The notes beneath the pieces were generated by a model. That model was given only the letters and a program-made list of their open reading frames with translations, was not told where the DNA came from and made no database searches. Below are positions 34,905 to 44,165 of a stretch of DNA of 64,000 bases, piece after piece. Source of the DNA: Pleurocapsa minor GSE-CHR-MK 17-07R (GTDB lineage Bacteria; Chloroflexota; Anaerolineae; Aggregatilineales; Phototrophicaceae); assembly GCA_019359125.1 (NCBI GenBank), contig JAHHHY010000010.1, positions 1 to 64,000 of the forward strand, in the 5' to 3' direction. A program made the translations under genes and the position numbers. Position 1 is the stretch's first letter. Each line of letters starts with the position of its first letter.

Positions 34905-37900
34905 TCACTGCATCGCGTCATCCAAGCCCGTAACGTTAGAAATGATTGTCGGAGGCCTGCCAGGATTCTCCGAAAGATAGTGATGCCGGCCAGACGGCGA
35001 CAGCCACATCACCTGATAGGGTGCCACGCGCAGGGGCTGGCCCATCTCCACAACAGCGCCGTTCAGCGTGTCCGTCCAGCGGCCTTCACCTGGCAGCGCG
35101 ACGACGATTGTATCGCCGGTCACGTTGTGGACGGCCAGCATGCGCTCCCGGCCATTCGGTGAAATGCGCTCCAGCACGAACAATCCCGGATGAACATCAT
35201 GAACGGTTTGCATGCCCAGCGGGTGGAAGGCGGGCTCAAGCGTGCGCACCAACAGTAGATGCCGGTAGCGCAGATGCACGTTGTATCTGAATGTTCCGGG
35301 TGTCTGCAGTTCTTTCAGCAGCGCGTCAGCATCCAGCTTCTCGCGGTTGATCGAGCGGAAGCGGCCGGTCGCCTCGACGCCCGCATGGTCGTTGCGCGAG
35401 CCAAACAGGCTGTGGAAGTAGATGCCAGGCACGCCCAGCATGGCCAGCATGATGGCCTGCGACACCATGAAGCGGTCGATGGCGATATCTGGCCGCTCGG
35501 CGGTGACCTCCGGCGCGGTGATCGCATCGAACCAGGTGATATTCATCTCATACGGGCTTTGCGTGCCGTCGCTGTTGTTCTTCATCGAGACATGCCCGCC
35601 GTGCGCCAGCGTGCGCGCCACCAGCGCAGCAACTTCGTCGGCGCTCAGGATGTCCTGCACGGGGCGCAGGCCGATGCCGTCATGCGACGCGGTGAAGTTG
35701 AAAAACGTGCTGCGGTCGCTCACCCGCGTGATCGTTTTGGCCCACGCGGACAGGTGACCGGCGTCGCCCGTCGCCAGCGTGTGCAGCACCAGCGGCGGCA
35801 GCGCGAAGTTGTACACCATCTGGGCTTCGTCGGTGCCATCGCCAAAATACGAGATATTTTCGACGTGCGGCACATTGGTCTCGGTGATGAGCATCACGTC
35901 CGGCGCGATGATATCCAGCACATCGCGCCAGAGCTGGATGATGAGGTGCGTCTCCGGCAGATGGATGCTGGTGGTGCCGACGATTTTCCACAGGAAGGCA
36001 ATCGCATCCAGCCGGATATACTGCGCGCCCTGCTCGACATAAAAGCGCAGCGCGCGCGTGAGCGCCACCAGCACGTCCGGGTTGGCCGCATTCAGGTCGA
36101 TCTGGTCGGCGCTGAAGGTCGTCCACACATGCCGGGTGCCGCTGGCGGTCTCGAACGGCGTGAGCAGCGGATGCGTGCGCGGGCGCGTGACCAGCGAGAC
36201 ATCCGTGCCTTCCGGCAGCGCCACGAAATACGCGTCATACGGGGCTTCGCCGCGCAGGAACGCCTGGAACCAGTCGCTGCCCGCCGAAATGTGGTTGAAC
36301 ACGGCGTCGAACATCAGGCGGTAGCGCCTGCCGATCTGGCGTACATCGTCCCATGTCCCCAGCGCCGGATCGACCTGGAAGTAGTCGATGACGGAAAAGC
36401 CGTCGTCGGACGACCACGGGTAAAAGGGCAGGATGTGCAGGCTGGATACCGGCGGACTGTCCCTGTAAAGCGTATGCAGCAGATTGTTCAGCGTGCGCAG
36501 CGGCGCTTCGCCTTCGCGCCGCACATGGTCGCCATACGCGATCAGCATCACGTCTTTCTCGCTCAGCGGCAGGTTGCCGCTCTTGCCGGGCGAGACAGGC
36601 GCAAGCAGCGGCTCCAGCGCGGCATAGGTCCCCACCGCCAGATCTGCGCCATACAGGGTGGTCAGTTTTTCGCGGATGCGTGCGTGAGCATCGATGTTCA
36701 CAGGCATTTCCTCTCGCGGGCTAAAGGCGTTGAGGACCGTGCAGGCGTAGGCGGCATTCGGCCAGGCGAACCACGCCCGCGAGGCCACCGCGCCGGTTTC
36801 CGGGTCGCTGGCTTCGGGCAGGCTGCCATCAGGCTGCGCGGCATGCCGCAGGCGGGCGACGGCCGCGGCCTCGCGGGCTGCATCGCCCAGCGCACGCGCC
36901 ACCAGCATGTCCTGCACATCGCCCAGCGGCCAGGGCGCACGCGTGTGCACAGACCCCAGTCGCCCATTGTACACGCCGTCTTTGTTGGCGTCTGAAAAGG
37001 CGAACTCCATGGTCGCCCGCCAGACCGGGTCATCGGCGCTGCAAAAGCCCCACGCGGGGGCCAGCACGGTCGGGAAGTCGTTGGCATCATGATACAGGTG
37101 CATGCCGCCATGCCCGTCGGTCGCATACGCCCAAACGGTCGCGCCGTCCAGGTTAGTCGAAAAATAGCGCGTGACGGCGGCCCGAATCTCGTCCGCCATG
37201 CCCCTCACCGGCATCCCAAGCTGATCCAGCCGGTCGAGCACCTTCCAGAACAGAATATGGCTCGACAGGTGGTAGGGTAAGGCGATCGGGTCGTCGGCGG
37301 GCGTCTCGTCGGTGGGAAACAGCGCAGCGTCCGGCGCACGACGCGCCATCAGCATGTCCAGCACCTGCTGTACCACGGGCTTCAGCCGGGCGAATGTGAC
37401 CCTGTCGCCGGTCATCAGCATATAGTCGGTCAGCTCCAGCAGCGGAAACAACTGCTGGTCAAGCTGAAACGCCGGGTCCTTGATGCGCCCGTTGGCCAGA
37501 TAGCAGCGGCCCCATGCGCCGTCAGGCCGGTCTGCGCGCTCGAACATCCACAGCAGATGCCGCCGCACGATCTCGCGCATTTCCGCCGGGCGCCCCGGCC
37601 AGTGCAGCAGCGCCAGCGCGACATAATAGGCATCGCGGTTCCACGACAGGGGCAGCAGCATGTGGTCCGTCAGCAGGCAGGTGGTGTCGTCGACGGGCAC
37701 TGCCATGTGATAGCCATACGACAAGCCGCGGCGCAACAGCGGATCAGCGGGCACAGCCGCCCACCACGCATCCCAGCGACGGCTGACACGTTCCAATGCG
37801 GGTGTAAGGGTGCGTTGCAGGTGAAAGTATGCTGGCCCGCCACGATCTTCTTCGCAGAACGCAAACTCGATCGTGGCATGGTTGACCGGTTCGCGAGGAT

Positions 37901-38426
37901 AGCCACGGACAATTACTGCGCCTATGGCTTCATTGCGAATGCGCCAGCAATCCAGAAACCGATCCGAGCTGGTTTCGATCGGAGGCATGGGCAGCGGCCC
38001 GCCCTCGGTGAGCTGGGTATAGGCACAGCGCATCAGCTGGTAATTTTCCGAGAAGCTGAGCGTACAGCCCTCGGCCTCCCAGTGCTGCACCACGATGCCT
38101 CCGGCTACATAAGTGACCACGCTGCATCGTGCTGATTCGCCGGCCAGCTCCTGGCGCACGCAGATTCCGTCACTGGTCGCGCTGACGGGCTCCAGCGGCA
38201 CACTGGGATTGATACCGAAACCCTCCAGATTGGCCAGCGCGGCCCGGTACGCCCGCACCGCCGACGGATCATAGCGTTTCGATTCGTCGAAGGGCGGCGC
38301 GCTGGTCAGCGTGGCGTAGCCGTGCTTGTGATGATAGAAATTCAGCGCGATGATGCGTCCGTAGGCATCCACGCTGCCATTAATCCCGTTTCCGCCAAAG
38401 TCCAGCGGTTTGGGTTGTGCTTTCAT
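34905..38426 (-). CDS. Fusion: six-hairpin (GH125-like) glycosidase + GH13_18 sugar phosphorylase
   Basis: 1173 residues. The N-terminal half (1-~570) is an (alpha/alpha)6-type glycosidase; SWNRDAYYVALALLHW, FQLDQQLFPLLELTDYM and GSVHTRAPWPLGDVQDM resemble GH125 most, but the subfamily call is by eye. The C-terminal half (~575-1150) is a GH13_18 phosphorylase-type TIM barrel: SSLHILPFYPWSSDDGFSV, nucleophile in YIRLDAIAFLWK (~805), acid/base in LITETNVPHVENIS (~848) and FTASHDGIG. GH13_18 members split sucrose, glucosylglycerol or glucosylglycerate with phosphate; the NVPHVENISYFGDG run recalls the glucosylglycerate branch. It is last in the LacI-ABC operon, starting 1 nt after the ATPase stop. 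The hydrolase may trim an imported glycoside before the phosphorylase saves its bond energy. Confidence 0.82.
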   Translation of the reverse strand: MKAQPKPLDFGGNGINGSVDAYGRIIALNFYHHKHGYATLTSAPPFDESKRYDPSAVRAYRAALANLEGFGINPSVPLEPVSATSDGICVRQELAGESARCSVVTYVAGGIVVQHWEAEGCTLSFSENYQLMRCAYTQLTEGGPLPMPPIETSSDRFLDCWRIRNEAIGAVIVRGYPREPVNHATIEFAFCEEDRGGPAYFHLQRTLTPALERVSRRWDAWWAAVPADPLLRRGLSYGYHMAVPVDDTTCLLTDHMLLPLSWNRDAYYVALALLHWPGRPAEMREIVRRHLLWMFERADRPDGAWGRCYLANGRIKDPAFQLDQQLFPLLELTDYMLMTGDRVTFARLKPVVQQVLDMLMARRAPDAALFPTDETPADDPIALPYHLSSHILFWKVLDRLDQLGMPVRGMADEIRAAVTRYFSTNLDGATVWAYATDGHGGMHLYHDANDFPTVLAPAWGFCSADDPVWRATMEFAFSDANKDGVYNGRLGSVHTRAPWPLGDVQDMLVARALGDAAREAAAVARLRHAAQPDGSLPEASDPETGAVASRAWFAWPNAAYACTVLNAFSPREEMPVNIDAHARIREKLTTLYGADLAVGTYAALEPLLAPVSPGKSGNLPLSEKDVMLIAYGDHVRREGEAPLRTLNNLLHTLYRDSPPVSSLHILPFYPWSSDDGFSVIDYFQVDPALGTWDDVRQIGRRYRLMFDAVFNHISAGSDWFQAFLRGEAPYDAYFVALPEGTDVSLVTRPRTHPLLTPFETASGTRHVWTTFSADQIDLNAANPDVLVALTRALRFYVEQGAQYIRLDAIAFLWKIVGTTSIHLPETHLIIQLWRDVLDIIAPDVMLITETNVPHVENISYFGDGTDEAQMVYNFALPPLVLHTLATGDAGHLSAWAKTITRVSDRSTFFNFTASHDGIGLRPVQDILSADEVAALVARTLAHGGHVSMKNNSDGTQSPYEMNITWFDAITAPEVTAERPDIAIDRFMVSQAIMLAMLGVPGIYFHSLFGSRNDHAGVEATGRFRSINREKLDADALLKELQTPGTFRYNVHLRYRHLLLVRTLEPAFHPLGMQTVHDVHPGLFVLERISPNGRERMLAVHNVTGDTIVVALPGEGRWTDTLNGAVVEMGQPLRVAPYQVMWLSPSGRHHYLSENPGRPPTIISNVTGLDDAMQ

Positions 38427-38427
38427 G

Positions 38428-39540
38428 TTAAGCCAGTGCCTTTTCCGTTTCGGCCGCGAGTGCCCGCCCTGTGTCGGCGTCCATATAGCGCACCTTGTTT
38501 TCCGGGAAGCGCAGCCAGATGGTTTCGCCCGCCGAGACGGTGAAGTCGGGATGGGTGGATACCTTGATCGTGTCCTGGCCGATGCGCGCCGTGAGTAAAT
38601 TCTGCGCGCCCAGGGGCTCCACCACGTCGATGGTGACCGGCACGGCGTCTGGTGAGGCCGTCTTCATCGGCTCCATACACTCGGCGCGGATGCCGATGAT
38701 GACCGGTTTGTCGCGCTGCTGTGCCAGCGCCGGATGCACGTCCTGCGGCGGCGTCAGCGAGAAATCGCCCAGCCTGACCACATAGCCCGCGCCATTCTGA
38801 TGCACATGCCCGTGCAGGAAGTTCATCGGCGGGGTGCCGATAAATCCGCCGACGAACTGATCGACCGGCAGGTCATACACCTTCGTCGGCTGGTCCAGCT
38901 GGAGGACCTTGCCATTGCGCATGACAGCGATGCGGTCGCCCATGCTCATCGCCTCGATCTGGTCGTGCGTGACATAGATCGTGGTCACGCCCAGCCGTTT
39001 GAGCAGCGTCTTCAGCTCGGCGCGCATTTCCAGGCGCAGCAGCGCGTCCAGGTTGCTCAGCGGCTCGTCCATCAGCACGATGCCCGATTCCACGGCAATC
39101 GCCCGGGCGACGGCGATGCGCTGACGCTGGCCGCCCGACATCTGGCTGGGGAAGCGGTCCAGCATGGTCTCGATATGCAGCAGTTTGGCGGCGTTTTCCA
39201 CGCGTTCCTGAATCTGCGCTTTGGGCGCCTTTTGCATCTTCAGCCCGAAGGCGATGTTGTCGAACACCTTCATGTGCGGGAAGATGGCGTAGTTCTGAAA
39301 CACCATCGAGATGCCGCGTTCGCGTGGCGCCAGATAGGTCACGTCTTTGCCGCCGATGATGATGCGCCCGCTGTCCAGCATCCCCAGCCCGGCGATGGCG
39401 CGCAGCAGCGTCGTCTTGCCACAGCCGGACGGGCCCAGCAGCACCAGGAATTCATGCTCGTGCACGGTCAGGCTGACATTATCGATGGCGGTGAACTTGC
39501 CGAATTTCTTGACGGCATTTTCGATCACAATTTCGGCCAT
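38428..39540 (-). CDS. Sugar ABC transporter ATPase (MalK/UgpC/MsmK type)
   Basis: 370 residues. Walker A GPSGCGKTT, Q-loop VFQNYAIFPHM, signature MSGGQRQR, Walker B IVLMDEPLSNLDA and H-loop YVTHDQIEAMSMGDR are intact. A C-terminal OB/TOBE regulatory domain (~235-365) is typical of the CUT1 family. It drives the two permeases at 39554-41596. Such ATPases can serve several importers, which matters because two other importers in this window lack an ATPase. The fusion enzyme gene follows after 1 nt. Confidence 0.95.
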   Translation of the reverse strand: MAEIVIENAVKKFGKFTAIDNVSLTVHEHEFLVLLGPSGCGKTTLLRAIAGLGMLDSGRIIIGGKDVTYLAPRERGISMVFQNYAIFPHMKVFDNIAFGLKMQKAPKAQIQERVENAAKLLHIETMLDRFPSQMSGGQRQRIAVARAIAVESGIVLMDEPLSNLDALLRLEMRAELKTLLKRLGVTTIYVTHDQIEAMSMGDRIAVMRNGKVLQLDQPTKVYDLPVDQFVGGFIGTPPMNFLHGHVHQNGAGYVVRLGDFSLTPPQDVHPALAQQRDKPVIIGIRAECMEPMKTASPDAVPVTIDVVEPLGAQNLLTARIGQDTIKVSTHPDFTVSAGETIWLRFPENKVRYMDADTGRALAAETEKALA

Positions 39541-39553
39541 GTGGCTTCACCCC

Positions 39554-40444
39554 TTATTTGTTGATCTGGCCCCACATGTTGAACAGGTAGCGCCGGATGA
39601 AGAAGATAAAAATCAGCGATGGCACCAGCATCACGAATGCCGATGCAAATTTGAACGGGTCGCTCGACTTGTCGAGGTTGTACAGGATGTGCGCGGGCAG
39701 CGTGCGGTTGGACAGCGTGAGCAGGATGGCCGCGAACACTTCGTTCCACGATAGCACGAACGTCAGGATGGCGGATGCCGCGATGCCCGGCAGCGCCAGC
39801 GGCAGCACCACCTGGAAGAAGGCCTGTAAGGGCGTGCAGCCAAACACCTGCGCCGCTTCCTCGAATTCAAACGGGACGCTGGCGAATACGCTGGAGATGA
39901 CCAGGATGGTGGTGGGCAGGGTGAGGGCGGTGTGCATCAGCGCCAGCGTGAACGGCTGGTCGAAGATGCCCAGCTGCAGGAAGATGACCGCCAGCGGCAC
40001 GGCCAGCACCACGATCGGGAAGGCGCGCACCGACAGCATCACCAGGCGGATGGCGTCGCGCCCGCGAAAGACGTAGCGTGCAATGGCGTATCCGGCGGGC
40101 ACCGCCAGAATGGTGGACAGCACGACCGTCACGATGGCGACAAAGATGCTGTTTCCGGTCGATGGGATGATGCCCTGTGCGTTGAGGAAGAACGAGATCG
40201 ATTCCAGCGAGATCGGGTTCGGGAAGAACGATTTCGGGAAGGCGCGCACATCCTGCGGGGTGCTGAAGGCCATATTGGCGATCAGCCAGATGGGCAGCAG
40301 GATCCAGACGGCCAGCGCGACCGCCACGACATACACACCTGCCCGCCGCAGGCGTAGCTGGATGCGCGCCCGCCGCCGCTGGGCGTCCCATGCCTGCGCC
40401 TGCGCCACGCTGACCGGGGCATTGGAGAACGTTTCTGCACTCAT
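39554..40444 (-). CDS. Sugar ABC permease, MalG type
   Basis: 296 residues, six membrane helices starting after a ~30-residue basic N-terminus (VYVVAVALAVWILLPIWLI). The EAA loop EFEEAAQVFGCTPLQAFFQVVLP docks the ATPase. It is the second permease of a CUT1 (oligosaccharide/glycoside) importer. It lies 18 nt after the MalF-type gene and 13 nt before the ATPase gene. Confidence 0.93.
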   Translation of the reverse strand: MSAETFSNAPVSVAQAQAWDAQRRRARIQLRLRRAGVYVVAVALAVWILLPIWLIANMAFSTPQDVRAFPKSFFPNPISLESISFFLNAQGIIPSTGNSIFVAIVTVVLSTILAVPAGYAIARYVFRGRDAIRLVMLSVRAFPIVVLAVPLAVIFLQLGIFDQPFTLALMHTALTLPTTILVISSVFASVPFEFEEAAQVFGCTPLQAFFQVVLPLALPGIAASAILTFVLSWNEVFAAILLTLSNRTLPAHILYNLDKSSDPFKFASAFVMLVPSLIFIFFIRRYLFNMWGQINK

Positions 40445-40462: not shown

Positions 40463-41596
40463 CTAGGTGGCCGACTTGGTTGCTTCGTCCTGCGATCGGA
40501 CTGCGCGCATGTAGAACAGGGAAATGGCCAGCGAAACGATCATGATGAAGCCGGCATAGACCGCTGCAACGCTGGGATTGTTGAACCGCGCAGGGTCGTA
40601 CCAGCGGAAAGTTTCGTTGGAAAGCACCGTCAGGATGTCGCCGCCGGTGATGGCGATGACCACGGCGAATACCTGGAACGCCAGAATCGTGCGCAGGATA
40701 AGCGCCACTTGCAGGCTGGGTTTCAGCAGCGGCAGGATGATATGGCGCAGGCGCTGCCACATGCTGGCGCCAAACACCTCGCCTGCCTCCAGATAGTCTT
40801 TCGGGATGGCCTGCAGGCCGCTGACGACGATGATCATGACGATCGAGGTGGCGCGCCAGATTTCGGCCAGCACGATGATGCTGATCATCCATGAAATATT
40901 CTCGGCGCGGATGAAGATGAAGGGCAGGTCGATCAGCCCGGCTGAGACCATCAACGAATTCAGGAAGCCGCGCTGCGTGAAAATGGCGAACCACAGGATG
41001 CCTGCCACCAGGTCGGAAATGCCCAGTGGGATGGCATAGATATACAGGAACATGCTGCTGCCGCGCACCTGGCTTTGCAGTACCAGCGCCATGATGATCG
41101 CCAGCACAAACTGCGCCGGGATAATCAGCACCATCAGCAGCAGGGTGGTGGAGATGGCCGAGCTGAAACGGAAGTCCGTCAGCATGCGGTTGACATGCTC
41201 GAATGTCCATTCGCGGGTTGCCTCGCCACCGGTGACGCGTGCCGTTTCTGACGTGCGGCGGTTTTCGATGAAGATGCTGCGCTGGCTGGCCCAGCCTTCC
41301 ACCGTCTCGCCAGCCAGGTCCGTCCCCTGAATCAGATACCAGAAGCTGGGGCGGGTGCCGCCATTGGGCAGCGTCTCGTCCAGCTGCTGGCGGTCGAGCA
41401 CGACGACTTCTGTTTGCAGCTCCAGTGCCCCGGTTGTGGCCGCCGACTCAACGGGCTCTGCACGCAGGCTGAGCGTTTGCGTCTCGCGGCTGAAGGCCAG
41501 CCCGAAAGCCTGCGTCATCGGGTAGAGGAAAAACAGCGCCAGATAAAACAGCGATGGAACCAGAAGCAGGTAGGGTGTCCATTTCGCGCGTCTCAT
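40463..41596 (-). CDS. Sugar ABC permease, MalF type with outer loop domain
   Basis: 377 residues, longer than a minimal MalF-type permease (~290). After the first helix (YLLLVPSLFYLALFFLYP) comes a ~100-residue outside region (about 38-140) rich in Glu/Thr, comparable in place to the MalF P2 loop that contacts the binding protein. Five or more helices follow, with the EAA loop YLEAGEVFGASMWQRLRHIILP. A 163-nt gap with a 14-bp hairpin (41708-41749) separates it from the binding-protein gene. Confidence 0.92.
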   Translation of the reverse strand: MRRAKWTPYLLLVPSLFYLALFFLYPMTQAFGLAFSRETQTLSLRAEPVESAATTGALELQTEVVVLDRQQLDETLPNGGTRPSFWYLIQGTDLAGETVEGWASQRSIFIENRRTSETARVTGGEATREWTFEHVNRMLTDFRFSSAISTTLLLMVLIIPAQFVLAIIMALVLQSQVRGSSMFLYIYAIPLGISDLVAGILWFAIFTQRGFLNSLMVSAGLIDLPFIFIRAENISWMISIIVLAEIWRATSIVMIIVVSGLQAIPKDYLEAGEVFGASMWQRLRHIILPLLKPSLQVALILRTILAFQVFAVVIAITGGDILTVLSNETFRWYDPARFNNPSVAAVYAGFIMIVSLAISLFYMRAVRSQDEATKSAT

Positions 41597-41759: not shown

Positions 41760-43061
41760 TTACATGCCACCCGTGGCGATCTGGCACGGGCCTTCGCTGG
41801 CCGGGTCAGGTGCCCAGCATGAAGCACCCGTCTCGTTCAGCAGCGCCTGCAGGCGTTCTGCTTCGCTGTCCAGCACGGTCTGGATGTCTTCACCGTCGAT
41901 GATGACACGGGTGAACGTGTTGATGTAGATTTCGTTGATCTCACCACCACGTGCACCCAGGCCCACCGGCAGCAGCGACGGGATGCCGTCTTCAGAAGCG
42001 GACTGCGCAGCCACAGCCGCAGCCTGGAGCGCCGCGCCTGCGGGCAGGCTGGCGACGTCCACTTCACCGATGACGGGGTAGAAGCCGAGCTGTTCCAGCA
42101 CCTGCGCCTGCACTTCCGGCGACAGCATGTAGCGGATCAGGTCTTCGGCGGCCGCGACATCACCCGTGGTATACGGGATGCCCAGGCCAGCGACGATCGG
42201 CATAAAGCCACGGCCAGCCGGGCCGGCTGGCGCGGGGAAGGCGATGAAGTCTTCAGGGGCCTGGTCAAAGGCCGGCTTCAGGCGTGCCACATGGTCAAAC
42301 GCGACCCACACTTCGCCCGACAGCAGCGGTTCGTTCATGAAGGCATAGCTGATCGACTGCGGATTGACGTACGGCCACAGGTCATCGCGCAGGAAGGCCA
42401 GCATTTCGGCGGCTTCGGGGCTGTTGAACTGCGTCACCATGCCGCCCGTGAAGGACGGGAACATATAGCCCTGCATGAAGCGGTGGATCAGGCCGGCGAC
42501 CGGCAGGCCCATCTTGGCTTCGCCCGTGGCGTCGAACATCGCCTGTGCCCATTCAGCCATCTGGTCCCAGGTCAGCGCGTTGATATCAGCGCCTTCGGGC
42601 AGATACTGGAGCGCCTCGTTGTTGGCGGCCATCGTCAGGGTCGCCTGCATCCACGGCACATAGTACTGGAAGTCTTCCGTGCCCATACGGCCCAGCTCGA
42701 CGTAGGCATCGTTGATGTCGGCGGAAGCTTCGATATCCGCCAGCAGGTCGGTCAGGTCAAACAGCAGGTCTTCACCGGCCAGTGTGGGGAAGGTGCCATG
42801 CAGCGCGCCCATGACGTCCTGCACGCCCTGTCCGGACTGTGCTTCGGCGCGCAGCAGGTCAATCGCCGGGCCTTCTTCGGACACCACGAATTCCACGCCG
42901 CTGCCAAACGCCTGCACGATCGCGCGGGCGCGTTCTGCTTCTTCCACCACGTTGAACTGGGTGGAGATAAAGGTGACGGGATCTTCCTGGCTGAGTGCTG
43001 GAGGAACGACCAGCGCCATTGCTGCCAGCGCCATAAGGGACAACCGAATTTTTGTGTTCAT
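41760..43061 (-). CDS. Sugar ABC substrate-binding protein (CUT1 family)
   Basis: 433 residues. Signal peptide (~1-24, ending PALS|Q) without lipobox. The mature part has the extracellular solute-binding type 1 pattern: an early QFNVVEEAERARAIVQAF, MGALHGTFPTLA, PWMQATLTMAANNEAL, LTWDQMAEWAQAM, a hinge MPIVAGLGIPYTTGD and a helical end with a Cys pair (SCWAPDP and GPCQIA). It captures a sugar or glycoside outside the membrane for the permeases that follow. The ligand is best guessed from the fusion enzyme: a glucoside such as glucosylglycerate or sucrose. It is the first structural gene after the LacI regulator. Confidence 0.9.
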   Translation of the reverse strand: MNTKIRLSLMALAAMALVVPPALSQEDPVTFISTQFNVVEEAERARAIVQAFGSGVEFVVSEEGPAIDLLRAEAQSGQGVQDVMGALHGTFPTLAGEDLLFDLTDLLADIEASADINDAYVELGRMGTEDFQYYVPWMQATLTMAANNEALQYLPEGADINALTWDQMAEWAQAMFDATGEAKMGLPVAGLIHRFMQGYMFPSFTGGMVTQFNSPEAAEMLAFLRDDLWPYVNPQSISYAFMNEPLLSGEVWVAFDHVARLKPAFDQAPEDFIAFPAPAGPAGRGFMPIVAGLGIPYTTGDVAAAEDLIRYMLSPEVQAQVLEQLGFYPVIGEVDVASLPAGAALQAAAVAAQSASEDGIPSLLPVGLGARGGEINEIYINTFTRVIIDGEDIQTVLDSEAERLQALLNETGASCWAPDPASEGPCQIATGGM

Positions 43062-43118: not shown

Positions 43119-44165
43119 TCAGGCCGATGGCCAGTCTCCTTTCCGGGACGATGAAGCCCCGCATGACTCCCGCACAATGAGCTGGGTTGGGAGCAGAATT
43201 TGGGTCTCCTGCGGTGGCCGACCCAGAATGATCGGCAGCAGAAGCTCGACCAGACGCCGGCCAATGTCATAAATTGGCTGACGAACGGTGGTAAGGGGAG
43301 GGTTGGCATGTTCCGAGATGGGCAGGTCGTCGAAGCCGACGATAGCCATGTCATGCCCGATGCGGTATCCGCGCCCCTGGGCCGCCTGCATCGCGCCCAG
43401 GGCCATCAGGTCGTTGCTGCACACCACCGCGGTGAGCCCCGCCTGGGTCTCGATGAAGTGTCGCATACAGGCCGCGCCGCCAGAGCGCATCAGGTCGCCA
43501 TGCAGCACCAGGCCGGCATCATAGGGGATGCCTGCGGCGGCCAGCGCATCGGCGTAGCCACGGTGGCGAAATTCTGTGTAAGCGATTTCAGGCGGCGGCA
43601 GCACCAGCCCGATGCGCGTGTGCCCCAGCGCGATCAGGTGCGCGGTCGCATGCTGGATGCCTGCCTGGCTGTCGACGTCGATAAACGGGAAATCGGTCGC
43701 TTCATCGGGCGCGGCGCGGCCCGACACGACAAACGGCATTTTGGCTTTGCGCAGATAGGCGATGCGCTCGTCGTGATGGCGCGTGCGCGCCAGAATCAGG
43801 CCATCCACACGATTCCCGCCCACGATGCGCTTGTAGGATTCCATTTCGTCATCACCGGCAGCGCGCGCGCTCACCAGCACATCAAAGCGCGACTCGCCGG
43901 CAGCATCCCCGATGCCGCGCATGAGCTGGTCGAAAAAGCCTTCTGAAAATGGCTGGTCGTGGGTGGGGATAATCAGGCCGATGGTTTGCGTGCGCTGGGC
44001 GCGCAGCTGGCGGGCGACTTCGTTGGGCTGGTAGCCCATTTCCTGGGCGGCGCGGATGATCTGCTGGCGCGTTTGCTCGTTGACATCGTCGTAGCCGGCC
44101 AGCGCGCGCGAGATGGTGGTGATGGAAAAGCCCGTTTTAAGCGATAAATCTTTCAGTCTGGTCAT
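43119..44165 (-). CDS. LacI-family transcriptional regulator
   Basis: 348 residues. The N-terminal helix-turn-helix is TRLKDLSLKTGFSITTISRAL with hinge helix NEVARQLRAQRTQTIGLI. The periplasmic-binding-like sensor domain shows RVDGLILARTRHHDER, AIVGFDDLPISEHANPPLTTVRQP and TQLIVRESCG. It should repress the sugar locus and release on binding an imported sugar or product. A perfect LacI-type palindrome at 44212-44227 lies 47 nt upstream of its start, so it controls its own promoter. The structural genes follow 57 nt downstream on the same strand. Confidence 0.94.
   Translation of the reverse strand: MTRLKDLSLKTGFSITTISRALAGYDDVNEQTRQQIIRAAQEMGYQPNEVARQLRAQRTQTIGLIIPTHDQPFSEGFFDQLMRGIGDAAGESRFDVLVSARAAGDDEMESYKRIVGGNRVDGLILARTRHHDERIAYLRKAKMPFVVSGRAAPDEATDFPFIDVDSQAGIQHATAHLIALGHTRIGLVLPPPEIAYTEFRHRGYADALAAAGIPYDAGLVLHGDLMRSGGAACMRHFIETQAGLTAVVCSNDLMALGAMQAAQGRGYRIGHDMAIVGFDDLPISEHANPPLTTVRQPIYDIGRRLVELLLPIILGRPPQETQILLPTQLIVRESCGASSSRKGDWPSA

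Follow-up and report, generated by a model that had tools for sequence, protein, structure and literature searches.

An operon for the predicted import and breakdown of a mannosylglucosylglycerate-type solute around a GH125-like/GH13_18 fusion gene in Chloroflexota

The window analysed here is a stretch of 64,000 nucleotides from Pleurocapsa minor GSE-CHR-MK 17-07R, an assembly placed by GTDB in the Chloroflexota (GCA_019359125.1, contig JAHHHY010000010.1, positions 1 to 64,000). On one strand of this window, six genes run in the order LacI-family regulator, solute-binding protein, permease 2, permease 1, ATPase and, last, a gene in which a GH125-like hydrolase (N half) is joined to a GH13_18 protein resembling glucosylglycerate phosphorylase (GGaP; C half). 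The features are listed in Table 1. The last gene is a single open frame with an ATG start, and both Pfam matches fall within its 1173-residue chain, as a sequence-only reading of this DNA had proposed; the five same-strand genes upstream likewise agree with its placing of the fusion at the end of an operon with a LacI regulator and a complete importer. The intergenic gaps from the LacI gene down to the fusion gene are 57, 163, 18, 13 and 1 bp. The importer comprises an SBP_bac_1 protein, two BPD_transp_1 permeases and an ATPase with a MalK OB domain, and is presumably of the CUT1 type. The regulator has a LacI DNA-binding domain and a periplasmic-binding-like domain, and would control the operon.

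Table 1. Features of the operon and of the two halves of the fusion protein (window positions)
Feature	Position	Strand	Basis
Fusion gene, GH125-like half + GH13_18 (GGaP-like) half, 1173 aa	34905..38426	-	open reading frame and Pfam
C half, residues 574-1173, GH13_18	34905..36707	-	family match and alignment
C-half loop-A E960	35547-35549	-	role by alignment
C-half D916	35679-35681	-	role by alignment
C-half acid/base E849, within TETN motif	35880-35882	-	role by alignment
C-half nucleophile D807	36006-36008	-	role by alignment
Junction: N-half end, AGAGGA ribosome-site-like stretch, M574, GTG576	36699..36725	-	sequence
N half (residues 1-573), GH125-like: (alpha/alpha)6 barrel preceded by an N-terminal beta domain	36708..38426	-	structure and alignment
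N-half base E538	36813-36815	-	role by alignment
N-half N449	37080-37082	-	role by alignment
N-half acid D378	37293-37295	-	role by alignment
N-half R264-D265	37632-37637	-	role by alignment
N-half W262	37641-37643	-	role by alignment
Importer ATPase, MalK type	38428..39540	-	Pfam domains
Importer permease 1	39554..40444	-	Pfam domains
Importer permease 2	40463..41596	-	Pfam domains
Solute-binding protein (SBP_bac_1)	41760..43061	-	Pfam domains
LacI-family regulator	43119..44165	-	Pfam domains

The C half matches the Pfam Alpha-amylase domain (74.5 bits, residues 661-878) as well as GH13_18 enzymes. It is 42% identical to E. coli YcjM, which is annotated as a glucosylglycerate phosphorylase, and shares with it the TETN motif, the loop-A glutamate and D807, E849 and D916, which we take to be the catalytic residues of GH13 enzymes. 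A (T/S)ETN motif together with a loop-A glutamate marks GGaP (PMC7178133), and both are present, as T848-E849-T850-N851 and E960. A sucrose phosphorylase was considered for the C half and rejected, since TIGR03852 scored 182 bits, below its cut-off of 334.4, and the GGaP motifs are present. These computations support the prediction of a GGaP-type GH13_18 phosphorylase. The sequence-only reading had arrived at the glucosylglycerate-type branch by way of the stretch ENISYFGDG; the branch is upheld by TETN and E960, but the pointer is not, as it lies just after the published motif and is not the one described in that source. Among named records, the closest C halves come mostly from Chloroflexota/Anaerolineae assemblies.

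The N half matches Pfam GH125 (PF06824) with 59.4 bits (cut-off 23.4) at residues 376-565, a match that spans model positions 214-414 of 414 only. When a profile built from 16 N halves, that of the window among them (alignment A1), was compared with the PDB, the best seven rows were GH125 enzymes, with a top E of 1.6e-18. Structure prediction, which the sequence-only reading had suggested as a check, gave a model (pLDDT 84.9, pTM 0.90) whose nine top structural matches are all GH125 alpha-mannosidases (Z 32.2-33.3, 338-348 residues aligned), the best being 6rqk (Z 33.3, rmsd 2.7, 338 residues, 15% identity). GH15-type structures rank after them at Z 29.6-30.7, with longer alignments that cover the N-terminal beta domain (9ju0, Z 30.7, 502 residues; 1ug9, Z 30.2, 488).

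In the PDB alignment of the A1 profile, D378, E538 and N449 face D220, E393 and N302 of CpGH125, the facing positions having been counted by hand in the printed alignment. In CpGH125, Asp220 is the acid and Glu393 the base, Trp62 provides stacking, Arg64 and Asp65 make the O3/O4 contacts, and Asn302 contacts O2 of mannose, a position taken by Arg567 in glucodextranase, which acts on glucose (PMC9883506). The same source equates CpGH125 W62/R64/D65 with glucodextranase W330/R332/D333, and it is via glucodextranase only, in a weak single alignment (E 0.016), that W262/R264/D265 of the N half are mapped onto these positions. With that proviso, the N half has the acid, the base and the mannose-side residues of GH125. 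All six residues are invariant, in 16 of 16 sequences of A1 and in 8 of 8 of A3, an alignment that adds more distant genomes and has three members in common with A1; the catalytic acids, whose absence the sequence-only reading had named as fatal to its proposal, are thus in place. The fold and the invariant residues indicate that the N half, beyond its GH15-like front domain, is equipped as an inverting mannosidase of the GH125 type, and a GH125-like alpha-mannosidase is the probable assignment. A GH15/GH63 alpha-glucosidase is less likely, given that the profile search ranks GH125 first and that Asn449 occupies a position that is Asn in GH125 and Arg in the GH15 glucodextranase (PMC9883506), although GH15-type structures score close behind.

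As the substrate we propose mannosylglucosylglycerate (MGG), alpha-mannosyl-(1,2)-alpha-glucosyl-(1,2)-glycerate (PMC4555173), a solute reported from Petrotoga and Rhodopirellula (PMC3694870). Its terminal mannose sits on a glucosylglycerate, which provides the two bonds that the halves would cut. That the operon imports and degrades MGG, or a very close alpha-mannosyl-glucosylglycerate, is in our assessment rather likely. The importer would take the solute into the cell, the N half would hydrolyse off the terminal mannose with inversion, and the C half would use phosphate to convert glucosylglycerate to alpha-glucose-1-phosphate and glycerate. Overall, mannose, glycerate and glucose-1-phosphate would be formed, and the cell would be spared a phosphorylation step that a hydrolytic route would cost. 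From the genes, folds, catalytic and subsite residues and operon linkage observed, we infer which substrate is used, in what order the steps follow and that the N half is specific for the 1,2 linkage. The two glycosidic bonds are probably cut in series, an idea of the sequence-only reading that gains support from the GH125-like acids, the GGaP-type half and the common importer, and for which MGG can now be named as the likely substrate; the genomic context sharpens to MGG what had been a compatible-solute or manno-glucoside route.

The distribution of the two halves was followed in 151 genomes, 85 of which match at E 1e-60 or better. Once the hits were sorted, the N part was found in 42 genomes and the C part in 84; C accompanies N in 41 of the 42 N-bearing genomes, and in 21 of these 42 the two share a contig. 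Having N and C on one contig was the reason for choosing 19 of the first 20 relative loci, and these 19 therefore give no unbiased test of N-C linkage. The addition of 22 further N-hit loci, which completed the 42 N-bearing genomes, and of six loci from more distant genomes makes the count of importers fair. Among these 48 N loci, 44 were testable (at least 1100 bp upstream of N), with L120, L198, L199 and L209 dropped beforehand as their contigs end at most 171 bp upstream of N. In 41 of the 44, N directly follows the importer's ATPase gene, with 3-107 bp between alignment ends (exceptions: L123, L200 and L206), which makes N primarily a gene of this importer. Independence of the loci is not given, because L209 and L210 come from a single genome, on two contigs, and some genomes are closely related (L128, L131 and L132). 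The sequence-only reading had made its case depend on a relation between the halves in other genomes, and there they are separate genes that share operons and partners, with N beside the same importer. In 39 genomes chosen for holding loci matched in the C-half search (four from Chloroflexota or Dormibacteraeota, most from other phyla), no N half was found at E 1e-30, in a search run without a positive control. Some GGaP-like genes with no N in their stretch (L041, L044, L046, L048 and L073) lie near a different ABC importer, one permease of which is 27-35% identical to the window's; some of these loci also have a GH63 or the GT4.

On a tree of 49 C proteins, adjacency of N and C (within 2.5 kb) needs three changes: in a clade of nine, in the pair L125/L126 and in the window, where the nearest relative (L009, 66%) carries N on a different contig. 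The tree was made by a quick method, several of its forks are weakly supported, and six rows that duplicated other loci of the set had been taken out. Rows scored as unlinked have N on another contig or no N match at all, and row L022 (G010), with N at a contig end, is uncertain. Counting changes does not distinguish gains from losses, but a history of three gains is the most parsimonious, and a repeated joining of the N and C genes argues for a common substrate. This bears on the alternative that N acts on some other alpha-mannoside or manno-gluco-oligosaccharide, for example the alpha-1,6-mannose of glycans or lipids, next to which the phosphorylase would be a mere neighbour. Alpha-1,6-mannosides are the substrates of known GH125 members (PMC9425025), but the near-constant company of GGaP in N-bearing relatives, the three changes on the tree and the affinity of the remaining recurrent partners to families of glucosylglycerate metabolism speak against it, and we regard this alternative as improbable.

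These recurrent partners are a GT4 glycosyltransferase and a GH63 protein. Among the first 20 relative loci, 10 have the GT4 gene in the same stretch; against the MGG synthase family NF041101 it scores 238 bits in L119 and 219 bits in L123, compared with 20 and 19 bits for the next NCBIfam family, and 54 of the 151 genomes match NF041101 at E 1e-25. A GH63 gene of the mannosylglycerate-hydrolase-like domain family directly follows N in L130, L197 and L200 (at 6, 54 and 42 bp) and lies farther from it in five other loci. The nearest family of the L130 protein, the only one of these three that was scanned, is glucosylglycerate hydrolase (157 bits, cut-off 550); the same holds for L128, well under the cut-off, and the L127 protein fits glucosylglycerate hydrolase and an alpha-glucosidase equally. 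The partners GGaP, a GH63 nearest glucosylglycerate hydrolase and a GT4 nearest MGG synthase thus point to MGG. One genome (G021, L123:8816-12055, minus strand) has N and the MGG-synthase-like GT4 fused into a single 1080-aa frame, so that one chain would hold putative enzymes for both cleaving and forming the same bond. In L122, a 2-hydroxyacid dehydrogenase gene that could take glycerate begins 19 bp past the C stop.

The same partners help to judge another possibility, that the importer takes several hexosylglycerates and that N hydrolyses mannosylglycerate while C phosphorolyses glucosylglycerate, two parallel reactions of one bond each. A search of 400 genomes found seven further Chloroflexota genomes with N, the window's own aside; GGaP accompanies N in two of them and is missing from the other five, which belong to one family, with the importer seen in the four of these five that were fetched. 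These five genomes would fit parallel reactions, as would the fact that mannosylglycerate is the better researched solute (PMC11009771). On the other hand, a mycobacterial GH63 enzyme has been studied with both glucosylglycerate and mannosylglycerate as substrates (PMC6608630), so the GH63 next to N in L130, L197 and L200 could already take mannosylglycerate and leave N spare. The GT4 partner points to MGG, and four of the five GGaP-less genomes have a strong GH63, nearest glucosylglycerate hydrolase (152-162 bits, cut-off 550), that could perform the second step, with weaker GH63 matches only in the fifth (G312). Overall, parallel reactions appear unlikely to us. In two of the loci with importer and N and without GGaP (L164 and L166), a TIGR00725 (SLOG-type) gene directly follows N, and L165 has a frame of the same size.

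Several observations weigh against MGG as the substrate. The GGaP-less genomes just described are among them, as is the alpha-1,6 linkage cut by known GH125 members (PMC9425025), since the bond in MGG is alpha-1,2. All of the GT4 proteins fall under the NF041101 cut-off of 640 bits (best 272.3), and the window's own genome has no NF041101-type GT4 at E 1e-25. Among C-bearing genomes, GT4 shows no significant association with N, being present in 28 of 41 with N and in 23 of 43 without it (P = 0.19 in Fisher tests that treat related genomes as independent). Glycerate kinases of PF13660 or PF02595 were sought in the window's genome and not found. Finally, the N half has the extra GH15-like beta domain at its front, and in Foldseek alone the first two ranks go to an amylo-alpha-1,6-glucosidase and a glucoamylase (7vma and 1lf6), with GH125 from rank 3, a result that also speaks for an alpha-glucosidase.

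Candidate genes for making such solutes were seen both in this genome and elsewhere. The window's genome has a GpgS match of 385 bits (cut-off 262), which predicts synthesis of glucosyl-3-phosphoglycerate. This GpgS forms the C-terminal part of a 633-aa frame (L170:9048-10946, minus strand, C3), the first 300 residues of which have no NCBIfam match at E 0.01. An MGG synthase was rejected for this genome, as no match turned up at E 1e-25; the GT4 frame that overlaps the 633-aa frame just upstream is a different one, its nearest family being TIGR04047, below the cut-off of that family. In five verrucomicrobial loci (L051, L059, L063, L064 and L067), a GGaP-like gene and an MGG-synthase-like GT4 occur together with frames of three more clusters. 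Scans covered the glucosyl-3-phosphoglycerate synthase-like gene of three loci (297-314 bits against a cut-off of 700), both the second GT4 and the HAD gene of two, and the MGG-synthase-like GT4 of one. With their GpgS-like, HAD, two GT4 and GGaP-like genes, these clusters are candidate MGG producers. A wider picture, which we offer tentatively, is that several Chloroflexota groups possess a dedicated MGG import-and-breakdown system with a new GH125-like enzyme class, the MGG alpha-mannosidases, that bacteria with such gene clusters, Verrucomicrobia for example, are producers, and that MGG is an ordinary traded solute, not an extremely rare one.

The functional link between N and C does not rest on their fusion. 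The window alone has a fused gene among the 21 genomes with both halves on one contig; in the other 20, 19 read as separate frames and in G018 another gene lies between. G136 appeared fused at first look and has two genes, and the fusion is hence rejected as a general trait. A literature search for a GH125-phosphorylase fusion listed only papers that, judged by their entries, are unrelated. At the junction, a TGA in the next frame overlaps GTG576 (GTGA) with AGAGGA in front, and there is no linker: the N half ends and the C half begins as in the separate proteins of relatives. A one-base change, real or an error, could therefore have made the fused frame, which may be recent or an assembly error; one base would restore two overlapping genes. 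An erroneous indel in the assembly would be suggested by this overlap, by the missing linker and by the lack of a second fused case, but the remaining five genes of the operon are intact, with the usual lengths, and the assembly has 23 contigs and a completeness of 98.02%. We consider such an error somewhat doubtful; it would leave the functions of the halves unchanged and is compatible with MGG as the substrate, so that the two are not competing explanations. A possible internal start at GTG576, with AGAGGA in front, could also yield a separate phosphorylase.

MGG has been called extremely rare (PMC4555173), and searches of the open literature turned up no described MGG breakdown enzyme, which is not proof of absence. 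If MGG is indeed the substrate, uncultured Chloroflexota consume it, and an uncharacterised GH125-like branch gains a testable substrate. GGaP genes also occur in organisms for which no accumulation of glucosylglycerate is assumed, a puzzle noted before (PMC7178133); such genes would then serve as the second step of a catabolic chain. A natural two-enzyme chain would also become available for making or reading out these solutes.

In comparison with known systems, the C half has the same catalytic residues, TETN motif and loop-A glutamate as the GGaP enzymes (GH13_18, EC 2.4.1.352) of E. coli (YcjM), Meiothermus silvanus and Spirochaeta thermophila, but differs from them in being fused to a hydrolase. 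The ycjM gene of E. coli likewise lies beside ABC-importer genes and a repressor gene, ycjW, whose product is presumably of the LacI type; the window's C half is linked to a GH125-like gene, whereas none is annotated in the E. coli stretch. The N half shares the barrel, acid, base and mannose-side residues of the GH125 exo-alpha-1,6-mannosidases CpGH125 and SpGH125, but it is only about 15-20% identical to them, carries an extra GH15-like N-terminal beta domain, is linked to an importer and glucosylglycerate-type genes, and likely cuts a different linkage. The GH63 mannosylglycerate and glucosylglycerate hydrolases (MgH/GgH) also act on hexosylglycerates, and genes of this kind adjoin N in some relatives; they belong to a different family, the N half having matched PF06824 and not PF22422. 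Petrotoga MGG synthase (NF041101) represents the nearest curated family of the GT4 proteins in related operons, which score below its cut-off, and it serves synthesis, in contrast to the breakdown proposed here.

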